From Acidimicrobiales bacterium (GTDB lineage: Bacteria > Actinomycetota > Acidimicrobiia > Acidimicrobiales > SHLQ01): a DNA stretch of 64,000 bases. A program made the translations under genes and the position numbers. Positions 16,148 to 60,262 of the stretch are shown piece after piece; positions within the stretch are counted from its first letter, which is position 1, and each line of letters opens with the position of its first letter. The notes beneath the pieces are model-generated. The model had not been told where the DNA came from. It saw only the letters and a list, made by a program, of their open reading frames with translations, and ran no database searches. Location: assembly GCA_020628865.1 (NCBI GenBank), contig JAHDEJ010000013.1, positions 1 through 64,000 of the forward strand. Reading direction: 5' to 3'.

Positions 16148-16162
16148 CAGTCACACGCCAAT

Positions 16163-26638: not shown

Positions 26639-26651
26639 GCCCACCCCAAAA

Positions 26652-26768
26652 GGTGCCAGGCACCTTCCGGGCGTAATGGTGCCAGGCACCTTCGAGACGT
26701 AATGGTGCCAGGCACCTTCGAGACGTAATGGTGCCAGGCACCTGCTGGGCGCAATGGTGCCAGGCACG
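26652..26768. repeat. 26-bp-spaced dyad repeat, locus 2 (five tandem units)
   Basis: GGTGCCAGGCACC begins at 26652, 26678, 26704 and 26730, with a last copy at 26756 ending in G. The period is exactly 26 bp. The 13-bp spacers are similar but not identical; two are TTCGAGACGTAAT. The array starts 13 bp after the GntR stop and ends 49 bp before the GGDEF gene. Confidence 0.9.
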
Positions 26769-55837: not shown

Positions 55838-55878
55838 AGGTGCCTGGCACCTAACGGGGGCTTAGGTGCCAGGCACCT
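55838..55878. repeat. 26-bp-spaced dyad repeat, locus 3 first pair (17-bp-stem hairpin)
   Basis: GGTGCCTGGCACC (55839) and GGTGCCAGGCACC (55865) start 26 bp apart. Because the two are mutually complementary, AGGTGCCTGGCACCTAA and its complement form a perfect 17-bp stem with a 7-nt loop. The pair begins two bases after the dehydrogenase stop. Confidence 0.9.
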
Positions 55879-55959: not shown

Positions 55960-56004
55960 TCAGGTGCCTGGCACCTAACGGGGGCTTAGGTGCCAGGCAC
56001 CTGA
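55960..56004. repeat. 26-bp-spaced dyad repeat, locus 3 second pair (20-bp-stem hairpin)
   Basis: This is a second copy of the same pair (GGTGCCTGGCACC at 55963 and GGTGCCAGGCACC at 55989) with the identical 13-nt spacer. Flanks extend the perfect stem to 20 bp. It lies 35 bp before the PLP-enzyme gene. Confidence 0.9.
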
Positions 56005-57321: not shown

Positions 57322-57843
57322 CTCCCGAGCGACCGGCGCCATCTGGTCCCGGTCACCGTCGCGGGCCGCCGTCGAAGACACGGAACGGAGTTCCGGCGGC
57401 GTCGCCAGGGCCAGGTCTGCCGGCGCTGCAGCTCCGTCGCGAGTCGCCACGACGGTTTCAGGGAGCGCAGCAACCGCGGCATCGCGGGCTGCGGCGTCGG
57501 TGTAGTAGCGCTCGTCGTTCACCTGCTCCCACTTGTCTGCACCCATGATCACCACGTCGTAGCCGTCGGCGATGTCGACGATCAGCTGTGCGTCGGTGGT
57601 GTGGACGGCCAGCCAATCATGCGCAGCGATGTCGGCAGCGATGAGCGCGATTCGCTCTTCGAGCGGCGGGCCCGGGGGAGTCGGCTTGTCGAGCGCCACT
57701 CGGGATACGACGAAGTGCACCTCGTCGAGACGGTGCCGCTCGCGAGCCAGACGAGCCACTTCAAGGTGGGCCACCGTGAGCGGATTGAAGGATCCCGGAA
57801 AGACGCCCCGGCGCAGTTCACCATCCGCAAGTGGATCGTCCAT
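57310..57843 (-). CDS. Cytidylyltransferase-fold nucleotidyltransferase (NadD-like)
   Basis: 177 residues from the ATG at 57843; an upstream ATG at 57879 adds 12 residues and would overlap the ilv promoter. GVFPGSFNPLTVAHLEVARL is the nucleotide-binding (H/T)xGH-type motif of adenylyltransferases, and DVVIMGADKWEQV is a NadD/CoaD-like segment. The usual C-terminal ISST motif is not obvious. It may transfer AMP to nicotinate mononucleotide or a related acceptor, but this is uncertain. Confidence 0.65.
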   Translation of the reverse strand: MDDPLADGELRRGVFPGSFNPLTVAHLEVARLARERHRLDEVHFVVSRVALDKPTPPGPPLEERIALIAADIAAHDWLAVHTTDAQLIVDIADGYDVVIMGADKWEQVNDERYYTDAAARDAAVAALPETVVATRDGAAAPADLALATPPELRSVSSTAARDGDRDQMAPVARERWA

Positions 57844-57852
57844 CTCTTCATG

Positions 57853-57889
57853 TTGCCGTAGCCGGGTGCTTCGAGGCATACTCACACTC
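57853..57889 (+). promoter_or_regulatory. Putative promoter of the ilvBN leader
   Basis: TTGCCG (57853-57858) and CATACT (57877-57882) are separated by 18 bp and each match the sigma-70 hexamers at four of six positions. Initiation about 7 bp downstream would fall at the GTG of the leader peptide, giving a leaderless start. This is inferred. Confidence 0.45.
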
Positions 57890-57928
57890 GTGAATTTCGA
57901 CCTCGACCTCGTAGTAATTCTCTCGTAG
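57890..57928 (+). CDS. Branched-chain leader peptide of the ilvBN attenuator
   Basis: A GTG-started 12-codon ORF, MNFDLDLVVILS, ends at a TAG. Six of its 12 residues are Leu, Val or Ile, with Val-Val-Ile-Leu in a row just before the stop. Two alternative-fold hairpins and a T-rich terminator follow. This is the layout of classic ilv attenuators, where ribosome stalling on scarce branched-chain aminoacyl-tRNA permits read-through. Confidence 0.8.
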   Translation: MNFDLDLVVILS

Positions 57929-57929
57929 T

Positions 57930-57948
57930 ACTCGACCCACCGTCGAGT
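57930..57948 (+). promoter_or_regulatory. Attenuator pause hairpin (1:2 stem)
   Basis: ACTCGAC and GTCGAGT form a perfect 7-bp stem, extendable by two pairs, directly after the leader-peptide stop. It is placed as the first hairpin of an amino-acid attenuator. Confidence 0.65.
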
Positions 57949-57954
57949 GCTGCC

Positions 57955-57986
57955 GCCTTCCCACACGGGAAGGCTTCTTGGTTTTT
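57955..57986 (+). terminator. Rho-independent attenuator terminator before ilvB
   Basis: GCCTTCCC and GGGAAGGC enclose ACAC and are followed by TTCTTGGTTTTT. This is the only clear stem-plus-T-tract terminator noticed in the window, and it lies 52 bp before ilvB, where only read-through would express the operon. Confidence 0.85.
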
Positions 57987-58037
57987 CAGGCCGCATTCAC
58001 ATCAACCACCACACACCCGAAGGGGCAGGAGCACATC

Positions 58038-59768
58038 ATGGAGATGGACGGAGGACAGGCACTCCTCAAAGCACTCGAGTACGAGGGCGTTGAGGTCGTG
58101 TTCGGCTACCCCGGCGGAGCCATCCTGCCCGTATACGACTCGGTGCTCGACGCCGGCATCCGTCACGTGCTCGTCCGGCACGAGCAGGGCGCCGGCCACA
58201 TGGCCTCGGGCTACGCCCACGCCACGGGCAAGCCGGGCGTCGTCATGGTCACGAGCGGTCCGGCGGCGACGAACATCGTCACGCCGCTGGCCGACGCCTA
58301 CCTGGATTCGGTCCCCATGGTCGCCATCACCGGGCAGGTTCCCTACGGCCTGATCGGCACCGATGCCTTCCAGGAGACGGACACGACCGGCATCACCATG
58401 TCGATCACCAAGCACAACTATCTCGTGTCTGACCCGAACGACATTCCGCAGATCGTGCACGAGGCGTTCCACATCGCAACGCACGGGCGGCCGGGGCCGG
58501 TCCTGATCGACCTGCCCAAGAACATCACCGACGCGATGAACCCCGATTCGAAGATGACCTGGCGCGATCCTGTCGCGGTCGATCTTCCGGGGTTCCAGCC
58601 GGTGCTCGACGGCGACCCGGCCGACATCGAGGCCGCGGTGAAGCTGCTCAAGGACGCCGAGCGCCCCGTGATCTACGCCGGCGGAGGCATTCTCAAGTCC
58701 CGGGCTGCGGCGGAACTCCAGGCGTTGGCCGAGAAGACCAACACGCCGGTGGTCACGACGCTCATGGCTCGCGGCGCGCTGCCGGACAGCCACGAGCTCA
58801 ACCTCGGCATGCCGGGCATGCATGGCAACTACACCGCTGTCATGGCGATGCAGGAGGCCGATCTGTTGCTTGCGCTGGGTAGTCGGTTCGACGATCGGGT
58901 GACGGGGCGTCTCGACTCGTTCGCCCCCGACGCCAAGGTCGTCCACGTCGACATCGACCCGGCCGAGCTCGGCAAGATCCGCCATCCCGACGTCGCCATT
59001 CGTGGCGATGCCAAGCGGGTGATCGCGGCGATGCTCGACACGCTCGGTACCGCGCAGACGGCGGACCATGGCGCGTGGCGCTCGAAGCTCAGCGGCTGGC
59101 AGGAGAACTATCCGTTGGCCTACGAGCCGGCTGAGCCGGGCGGCAAGCTCAAGCCGCAGATGGTCATCGAGAGCATCCGTGATGCGTCGCCGAAGGACAC
59201 GATCGTTGCCTCCGGCGTTGGTCAGCATCAGATGTGGGCCAGTCAGTACTGGACGTTCGATCACGCCTACACGTGGCTCAACTCCGGTGGCCTCGGCACG
59301 ATGGGCTACTCGATTCCAGCGGCGGTCGGCGCCAAGGCCGGTATGCCGGACCGCACCGTGTGGGCGATCGACGGCGACGGGTGCTTCCAGATGACCTGCC
59401 AGGAGCTCATCACCGCCTCGGTCGAGAACATTCCGATCAAGGTGGCGCTGCTCAACAACACGTACCTCGGCATGGTCCGTCAATGGCAGGAGATGTTCTA
59501 CGAGAACCGTCTGTCCGAAGTCGATCTGTCCGGCCCCGTGCCCGACTACATCAAGCTGTCCGAGGCCATGGGTTGCGTGGCCATCCGGGTGGAGGACCCC
59601 GACGAGGTCGAGGACGCCATCGCCCGCGCCAACGCCATCAACGACCGCCCGGTCGTCGTCGAGTTCCTCACCGAGCCGGGCGAGAACGTGTACCCGATGG
59701 TGCCCGGCGGCAAGAGCAACTCCGACATCGTCGTTCCGCCGTTCCAGGAGAAGGAGACCCGGTCATGA
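58038..59768 (+). CDS. ilvB: Acetolactate synthase large subunit
   Basis: 576 residues. The ThDP Glu is E49 (RHEQGAGHMA), followed by the FAD-binding middle domain (LMARGALPDSHELNLGMPGM), SGVGQHQMW and the ThDP/Mg motif GDGCFQMTCQELIT through NNTYLGMVRQWQ. It condenses pyruvate to acetolactate or with 2-ketobutyrate to acetohydroxybutyrate, the first step of valine, leucine and isoleucine synthesis. The ATG at 58038 follows AGGGGCAGGAG. Control by the upstream attenuator is likely. Confidence 0.97.
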   Translation: MEMDGGQALLKALEYEGVEVVFGYPGGAILPVYDSVLDAGIRHVLVRHEQGAGHMASGYAHATGKPGVVMVTSGPAATNIVTPLADAYLDSVPMVAITGQVPYGLIGTDAFQETDTTGITMSITKHNYLVSDPNDIPQIVHEAFHIATHGRPGPVLIDLPKNITDAMNPDSKMTWRDPVAVDLPGFQPVLDGDPADIEAAVKLLKDAERPVIYAGGGILKSRAAAELQALAEKTNTPVVTTLMARGALPDSHELNLGMPGMHGNYTAVMAMQEADLLLALGSRFDDRVTGRLDSFAPDAKVVHVDIDPAELGKIRHPDVAIRGDAKRVIAAMLDTLGTAQTADHGAWRSKLSGWQENYPLAYEPAEPGGKLKPQMVIESIRDASPKDTIVASGVGQHQMWASQYWTFDHAYTWLNSGGLGTMGYSIPAAVGAKAGMPDRTVWAIDGDGCFQMTCQELITASVENIPIKVALLNNTYLGMVRQWQEMFYENRLSEVDLSGPVPDYIKLSEAMGCVAIRVEDPDEVEDAIARANAINDRPVVVEFLTEPGENVYPMVPGGKSNSDIVVPPFQEKETRS

Positions 59769-60262
59769 AGCGATCCCAGCTTGCAGAAACGCACACGCTC
59801 GCCGTGCTCGTGGAGAACAAGGCCGGCGTCCTCGCCCGGGTGGCCGGACTGTTCGCCCGCCGCGGGTTCAACATCGACTCGCTGGCCGTCGCTCCGACCG
59901 ACGAGCGTTTCAGCCGGATCACGATCGTGGTCGACGCGGAGTCCGCGCCGATCGACCAGATCAAGAAGCAGCTCGACAAGCTCATCAACGTGGTCGATAT
60001 CGTCGAGCTGCAGCCGGAGTCGTCGGCGCTGCGCGAGATGGTGCTGGTGCGGCTCGAGCTGCCCGAGGACGATCAGGTCGACGATGTGCTCCAGCTCGTG
60101 TCCGGATTCAACGGTGCGGTGCTTCGTGTCCGGGGCACGCAGATGATCCTGTCGCTCTCGAGTCGACCGGACGAGCTCGACTCGTTTGTCGAGAAGCTCC
60201 AGCCCTACGGGATCCGGGAGCTCCAGCGCACCGGCGCGATTGCCATTCCCGGTATCGAGTAG
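59765..60262 (+). CDS. ilvN: Acetolactate synthase small (regulatory) subunit
   Basis: 165 residues, ATGA-coupled to ilvB. N-terminal ACT domain (LAVLVENKAGVLARVAGLFA, RRGFNIDSLAVAPT) and the C-terminal ALS_ss domain (LREMVLVRLELPEDDQVDDV). It confers feedback inhibition by valine. ilvC, often next, is not here; a terminator follows instead. Confidence 0.96.
   Translation: MKRSQLAETHTLAVLVENKAGVLARVAGLFARRGFNIDSLAVAPTDERFSRITIVVDAESAPIDQIKKQLDKLINVVDIVELQPESSALREMVLVRLELPEDDQVDDVLQLVSGFNGAVLRVRGTQMILSLSSRPDELDSFVEKLQPYGIRELQRTGAIAIPGIE

Follow-up and report, generated by a model that had tools for sequence, protein, structure and literature searches.

A candidate ribosome-mediated attenuator of ilvBN with a stop codon-anchored hairpin, conserved in Acidimicrobiia

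Here we describe a leader upstream of the ilvBN genes of an Acidimicrobiales bacterium that, judging from sequence comparison, is very probably a ribosome-mediated transcription attenuator sensing branched-chain aminoacyl-tRNA, chiefly valyl-tRNA, via rare GTA codons. The leader was identified in a 64,000-nucleotide stretch of DNA (hereafter, the window) and consists of a short open reading frame (ORF), a hairpin anchored at its stop codon (P1), and an intrinsic terminator (P2). This finding widens the range of ribosome-mediated attenuation to include a largely uncultured class, in which a covariance model of the motif detects gene-specific copies, with Val codons before ilvB, Ile codons before cimA, and Leu codons before leuA and leuS. 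The initial annotation of the window had proposed a complete attenuator at this site: the attenuator itself is borne out by conservation, covariation, and gene-matched codons, whereas its completeness with the antiterminator suggested there is not.

Organization of the ilvBN leader

All parts of the leader lie between ilvB and a divergently oriented nadD-like gene, which starts at 57843 on the minus strand (Pfam cytidylyltransferase-like; Table 1). The 12-codon ORF with its Val-Val-Ile-Leu run and the GC-rich stem with a T-rich tail ahead of ilvB were both correctly recognized in the initial annotation; the hairpin that follows the ORF is also present but is longer than the 7-9 bp given there. 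The arms of P1, GTAGTACTCGAC (57925-57936) and GTCGAGTGCTGC (57942-57953), form a helix of -19.0 kcal/mol, and P2, with the sequence GCCTTCCC-ACAC-GGGAAGGC, folds with -14.6 kcal/mol. P2 provides an intrinsic terminator between the leader ORF and the first gene of the operon and is the single terminator-like site within 1 kb, where 0.2 such sites are expected from shuffling. The fold of the leader RNA as a whole surpasses those of 200 out of 200 shuffled sequences (z -3.8). Downstream, the start codon of ilvN overlaps the stop codon of ilvB (ATGA at 59765).

Table 1. Leader features in the window and loci of the gene-matched copies
Feature	Position or locus	Strand	Remarks
-35-like element TTGCCG	57853-57858	+	18 bp before the -10-like element; from sequence
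-10-like element CATACT	57877-57882	+	extended form GGCATACT; 7 nt before GTG
Leader ORF MNFDLDLVVILS	57890-57928	+	12 codons, probably leaderless; GTG at 57890, stop TAG at 57926-57928
Control codons	57908-57922	+	CTC GTA GTA ATT CTC (Leu-Val-Val-Ile-Leu)
Hairpin P1	57925-57953	+	12 bp; begins one base ahead of the stop codon, with a 1-nt gap to the terminator
Intrinsic terminator hairpin P2	57955-57974	+	8 bp; arms 57955-57962 and 57967-57974
U-tract TTCTTGGTTTTT	57975-57986	+	directly after P2
AGGAG, putative ribosome binding site of ilvB	58027-58031	+	from sequence
ilvB, acetolactate synthase large subunit	58038-59768	+	ATG start; NCBIfam TIGR00118, 757 bits (cut-off 538)
ilvN, acetolactate synthase small subunit	59765-60262	+	NCBIfam TIGR00119, 152 bits (cut-off 57)
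cimA copies	L134, L136, L137, L139, L159, L162		
leuB copies	L133, L135, L138, L153, L155, L157, L160, L161, L163, L164, L166, L172		
leuA copies	L140, L154		
leuS copies	L169, L170		L169 sequence ends before the gene; its leader is identical to that of L170

The -35-like element is a weak match to the consensus and was left unlisted by a promoter scan at 9 of 12; the equivalent spot is conserved in relatives from the same genus as TTGCC, TTGTC, or TTGCA. The CATACT hexamer is kept in all oriented genus sequences but one, which carries GGCATAAT.

Elsewhere in the window, a palindromic 15-mer, AGGTGCCAGGCACCT, occurs at 26651-26743, 55838-55878, and 55962-56002, and also at 16162, in inverted pairs or arrays spaced by 26 bp. 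With one mismatch or fewer, it has 14 matches in the window (0.01 expected), and the genome contains 106 exact copies compared to none of the reversed control. It looks like an intergenic repeat of the REP/MITE type.

Conservation and covariation across Acidimicrobiia

For comparison, 93 upstream regions were collected from 80 ilvB loci of named contigs and from the genus and family of the window. The terminator core was found by pattern in 87 of these; one was dropped as spurious, and 74 remained after dereplication. All 74 dereplicated ilvB loci, for which the terminator core was the condition of entry, combine a leader rich in Ile, Leu, and Val with P2 and with a P1 that starts at the stop codon or adjacent to it. 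R1, a covariance model trained on six genus sequences, recovers the motif just upstream of ilvB in approximately 70 of 81 class loci; two of these (L050 and L082) had been missed by the pattern. R1 also gave one small off-target match. A class-wide model (R2) has matches in 222 of 296 class genomes and none in the other 74 at an E-value of 0.001, and in 76 of 396 genomes drawn from the phylum.

The conserved Leu/Val/Ile-rich ORF and the compensatory stem changes anticipated in the initial annotation for related ilvB upstream regions were thus both found. In an alignment that itself leans to the structure, 97.6% of the cells of the P1 and P2 helices jointly are occupied by standard pairs, compared to 41-54% in slid registers, and changes on both sides occur in 14 of 17 pairs, including all nine modelled P1 pairs. 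Independently of this alignment, P1 folds with -17.1 kcal/mol when its native halves are combined and with -11.8 kcal/mol when the halves are swapped. Within the genus alignment, one pair appears as T-A, A-T, and G-T, and another as A-T and G-C. Because it misaligned the 3' arms of P1, the class-wide MAFFT alignment did not enter the pair counts. The register swap of whole P1 halves is a weak control because the P1 sequence is conserved, and mismatched partners still pair at 7 of 7 positions in 52% of the cases; the covariation argument is therefore carried by the genus alignment, the folding of native and swapped halves, and the pair counts.

Both hairpins are far more structured than shuffled sequences across the 74 loci, with mean z-scores of -3.8 for P1 and -4.6 for P2, and their placement is tightly constrained. 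The 5' base of P1 is located at stop +1 or +2 in 61 of the 74 relatives, and the gap between P1 and P2 is 0-5 nt in all 74; when paralogous copies (see below) are added to those before ilvB, the gap is 0-6 nt and the distance from the stop codon to P2 is at least 21 nt. The P1 sequence is conserved beyond pairing (TAGCGCACG..CGTGCGC).

Across the class, the sequence of the P2 core, CCTCCC..GGGAGG, hardly varies (for example, in L022, L028, and L041), with few or no changes in several pairs. This near-invariance exceeds the needs of a terminator alone.

Leader translation and gene-matched control codons

In 54 of the 74 class leaders, a -10 hexamer precedes an in-frame ATG or GTG by 5-9 nt (mode 7), compared to 4.2% of shuffled controls. 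The leaderless GTG start approximately 7 nt downstream of a -10 element, advanced as an added inference in the initial annotation, agrees with this class-wide pattern, and translation of the leader very probably begins without a 5' untranslated region. Val is the prevailing residue at positions -3 to -5 relative to the stop codon. Among the 175 Val codons of the leaders, 114 (65%) are GTA, a 13-fold enrichment over the ilvB genes at these loci, which served as the baseline (142 of 2798, 5%). Conservation and codon choice both indicate a short leader ORF with control codons for the product of the operon.

Further copies of the motif were detected with R2, within the class and beyond, upstream of cimA, leuA, leuS, and leuB (Table 1). 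These copies were classified by the downstream gene, with representative genes checked by NCBIfam, and control codons were tallied over the last seven leader residues. Copies upstream of cimA, the gene of citramalate synthase, which catalyzes the first step in isoleucine synthesis via the pyruvate route, contain 29 Ile, 4 Val, and 1 Leu; those upstream of leuA and leuS contain Leu exclusively (8 of 8 and 3 of 3, respectively); and those upstream of leuB contain 25 Ile, 17 Val, and 4 Leu. In all paralogous copies, P1 is positioned at the stop codon, and wherever P2 could be delimited, P1 ends 0-6 nt before it. Of all the evidence for reading of these codons by a ribosome, the match between the control codons and the downstream pathway is the strongest. 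One further match (L148), in which a terminator follows the end of a longer reading frame, is probably due to chance and was left out of the tally.

In the genome from which the window originates, the ilvB copy alone scores above the threshold. The second match in this genome, at C11:10945 (17.8 bits, E 0.84), consists of a tRNA with a terminator behind it and was discarded as a chance hit. In this genome, cimA follows leuB, and no such leader was seen upstream of leuB.

Two additional observations concern related leaders. Just upstream of leuA in the same genome (L176, contig C79), a short ORF, MDPRLDLRLMGPAS-stop, is located 7 nt after a TACAGT-like -10 element and resembles actinobacterial leuA leaders. 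In three loci from other classes of Actinomycetota (L145, L146, and L147), the leaders ahead of cimA contain Ile codons (ARIIGS, TTTVIIT, and TATVIID), and the terminator, GACCTCCC..GGGGGGTC, closely resembles that of the Acidimicrobiia ilvB leaders.

Transmission of the ribosome position to the terminator

We favor, with moderate confidence, a full explanation in which a ribosome-gated P1 sterically blocks P2. Transcription would begin at or beside the GTG, so that the leader would be translated without a Shine-Dalgarno site. When branched-chain amino acids are plentiful, the first ribosome would reach the stop codon and cover approximately 12 nt beyond it, that is, the 5' arm of P1; P1 would be prevented, P2 would close, and transcription would end before ilvB. 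Under shortage of valine, isoleucine, or leucine, the ribosome would stall 9-18 nt before the stop codon with its front edge at the base of P1, and P1 would form, ending 0-5 nt before P2. At the point of termination, the base of P2 would be inside RNA polymerase, where the attached stable duplex should stop the last base pairs from closing, resulting in read-through into ilvBN.

The front edge of a ribosome lies approximately 12 nt past the A site, so that a ribosome on the Val codons at -15 to -9 would reach just to the base of P1. Given that, with few exceptions, relatives and paralogous copies have the 5' base of P1 within the stop codon, we infer from this geometry the positions of the ribosome, the dependence of P1 on them, and the direction of regulation: starvation would yield P1 and plenty would not, and for control to run in a sensible direction, P1 must oppose P2. 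An intrinsic terminator works only if the last 2-3 bp of its hairpin close, and a ribosome can block this step as a bulky neighbor; the stop codon should be more than 20 nt from the terminator so that a ribosome at the stop codon does not itself block termination (PMC4824070). The distance in the present motif fits this rule, and an abutting P1 duplex may act like the bulky ribosome. Taken on its own, the proposal that P1 sterically opposes P2 is tentative, its chances falling slightly short of even. More tentative still is the reading that blocked leader translation would lead to read-through, the reverse of trp.

The predicted probability of the P2 core is 0.99 when P1 is available or the ribosome is stalled, 0.995 with a ribosome at the stop codon, and 0.97 without a ribosome. 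P1 and P2 thus coexist at equilibrium, and a switch between them would have to work kinetically or sterically. This thermodynamic compatibility would also suit a ribosome-mediated attenuator whose P1 serves only for pausing or synchronizing, like 1:2 of trp; ribosome and polymerase timing would then modulate the terminator, or else an antiterminator invisible as secondary structure, such as a pseudoknot or a protein factor, would do so. P1 is located right after the leader, where a pause hairpin is expected, and its conservation beyond pairing hints at contacts. However, a pure pause hairpin does not account for the constant gap of 0-6 nt between P1 and P2 and leaves the antitermination step unexplained, and we consider this version unlikely, although worth weighing.

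A classical three-segment attenuator, in which the freed 3' arm of P1 pairs with the 5' arm of P2, appears very improbable. Its candidate antiterminator, proposed in the initial annotation as a pairing of CCGT..GTG with CACACGG, exists in the window as an interrupted 7-bp duplex of -4.4 kcal/mol, but the CACACGG strand takes in the ACAC loop of the terminator, which is replaced by AGCC, AGAT, AACC, or AACT in relatives from the genus, and the pairing exceeds chance in none of the relatives, so this part of the proposal was abandoned. The segment freed by a ribosome at the stop codon is less structured than shuffled sequences (mean z +0.76), with none of the 74 loci at -2 or below. A search for upstream partners yielded nothing above chance for the 5' arm of P2 (z +0.81, 0 of 73) and, with scattered sites, no excess over shuffles for its 3' arm (z +0.10) or the U-tract (z -0.10); one truncated locus (L013) was left out of the final pairing energies. 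The geometry would be inverted as well: a ribosome stalled at the Val codons would leave P1 intact. P1 begins at or after the last nucleotide before the stop codon, so that the control codons lie outside the 5' arm of the first hairpin. Neither a 2:3 antiterminator that excludes the terminator nor control codons inside the first hairpin, as in trp-type attenuators, were found.

Two other pairings were considered and rejected. One, a leader pairing of GAGGU/GGUCG with ACCUC/CGACC noticed by eye, is confined to a Microthrix-like clade and would be covered by a stalled ribosome; the other, between the leader and the U-tract in L008 and L093, is not conserved.

Finally, a terminator independent of leader translation (a riboswitch, a protein-bound RNA, or a plain transcription filter with a chance ORF) is in keeping with the sequence conservation of P1 but is highly improbable, given that the control codons match the gene, the rare GTA is enriched 13-fold, P1 is tied to the stop codon, and Rfam gives no match in the window or its relatives.

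Comparison with known attenuators

Attenuators of branched-chain amino acid genes upstream of actinobacterial ilvB are already known. In the ilv and trp attenuators of Escherichia coli, the position of the ribosome on the control codons decides termination, as proposed here for the ribosome-gated P1; unlike the present motif, these systems need a 2:3 antiterminator and control codons within segment 1. Blocked leader translation is predicted to cause read-through here, but termination in E. coli ilv and trp.

None of the Rfam 15 families reached the gathering score in the window or the relatives, where sub-threshold matches appear to be due to chance, such as that of HIV_FE at P2, a chance hairpin match with 20.5 bits against a gathering score of 45.

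Candidate attenuators of ilvB, leuA, and leuS in Actinobacteria have been reported (Seliverstov 2005, PMC1262725), and leaderless IlvL and LeuL leaders of attenuators are established in Streptomyces lividans (PMC8079986). These systems share with the present motif the genes, the kind of leader peptide, the leaderless transcripts, and the terminators (PMC1262725, PMC8079986). However, Seliverstov 2005 does not mention Acidimicrobiia, the passages considered include no cimA copy, and a P1 anchored at the stop codon is not described (PMC1262725). In the literature searched, we found no description of branched-chain amino acid attenuators in Acidimicrobiia or upstream of cimA; most subscription papers were outside the scope of this search, so an earlier description is possible.

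The ilvB-II motif and ilvBNC of Corynebacterium glutamicum likewise represent an actinobacterial ilvB leader with a short ORF, a hairpin, and a terminator (PMC10272879, PMC11857589). In C. glutamicum, the leader start codon is one nucleotide from the 5' end of the RNA (PMC11857589), and the antiterminator and terminator hairpins are adjacent, overlapping by 3 nt (PMC10272879, PMC11857589). Whereas P1 of ilvB-II holds most of the ORF including the control codons (PMC10272879), P1 of the present motif begins at the stop codon and excludes them, while the P2 terminator is common to both; as far as tested, and judging by the ilvB-II description, the two do not belong to the same sequence family. 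In C. glutamicum, point mutations that affect only the antiterminator-type hairpins have moderate-to-weak effects (PMC11857589), and replacement of the control codons of Streptomyces coelicolor ilvB had no effect, as cited in PMC1262725; on the question of how the ribosome acts on the terminator, these mutant data are ambiguous.

In Mycobacterium tuberculosis ilvB1NC, experiments including a replacement of LVVI by AAAA indicate that a ribosome at the stop codon prevents, and a stalled ribosome allows, an antiterminating hairpin in a leader RNA of 166 nt (PMC13236596), which is the ribosome logic proposed here. As in the present motif, LVVI/GUA control codons lie in the leader ORF, and a terminator with a U-tract precedes ilvB (PMC13236596). 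The M. tuberculosis model relies on mutually exclusive hairpins, whereas, comparing by description, none are formed by base pairing here. The conserved layout of two hairpins lacks the antiterminator demanded by textbook models and makes the passing of the ribosome position to the terminator in Actinomycetota directly testable.
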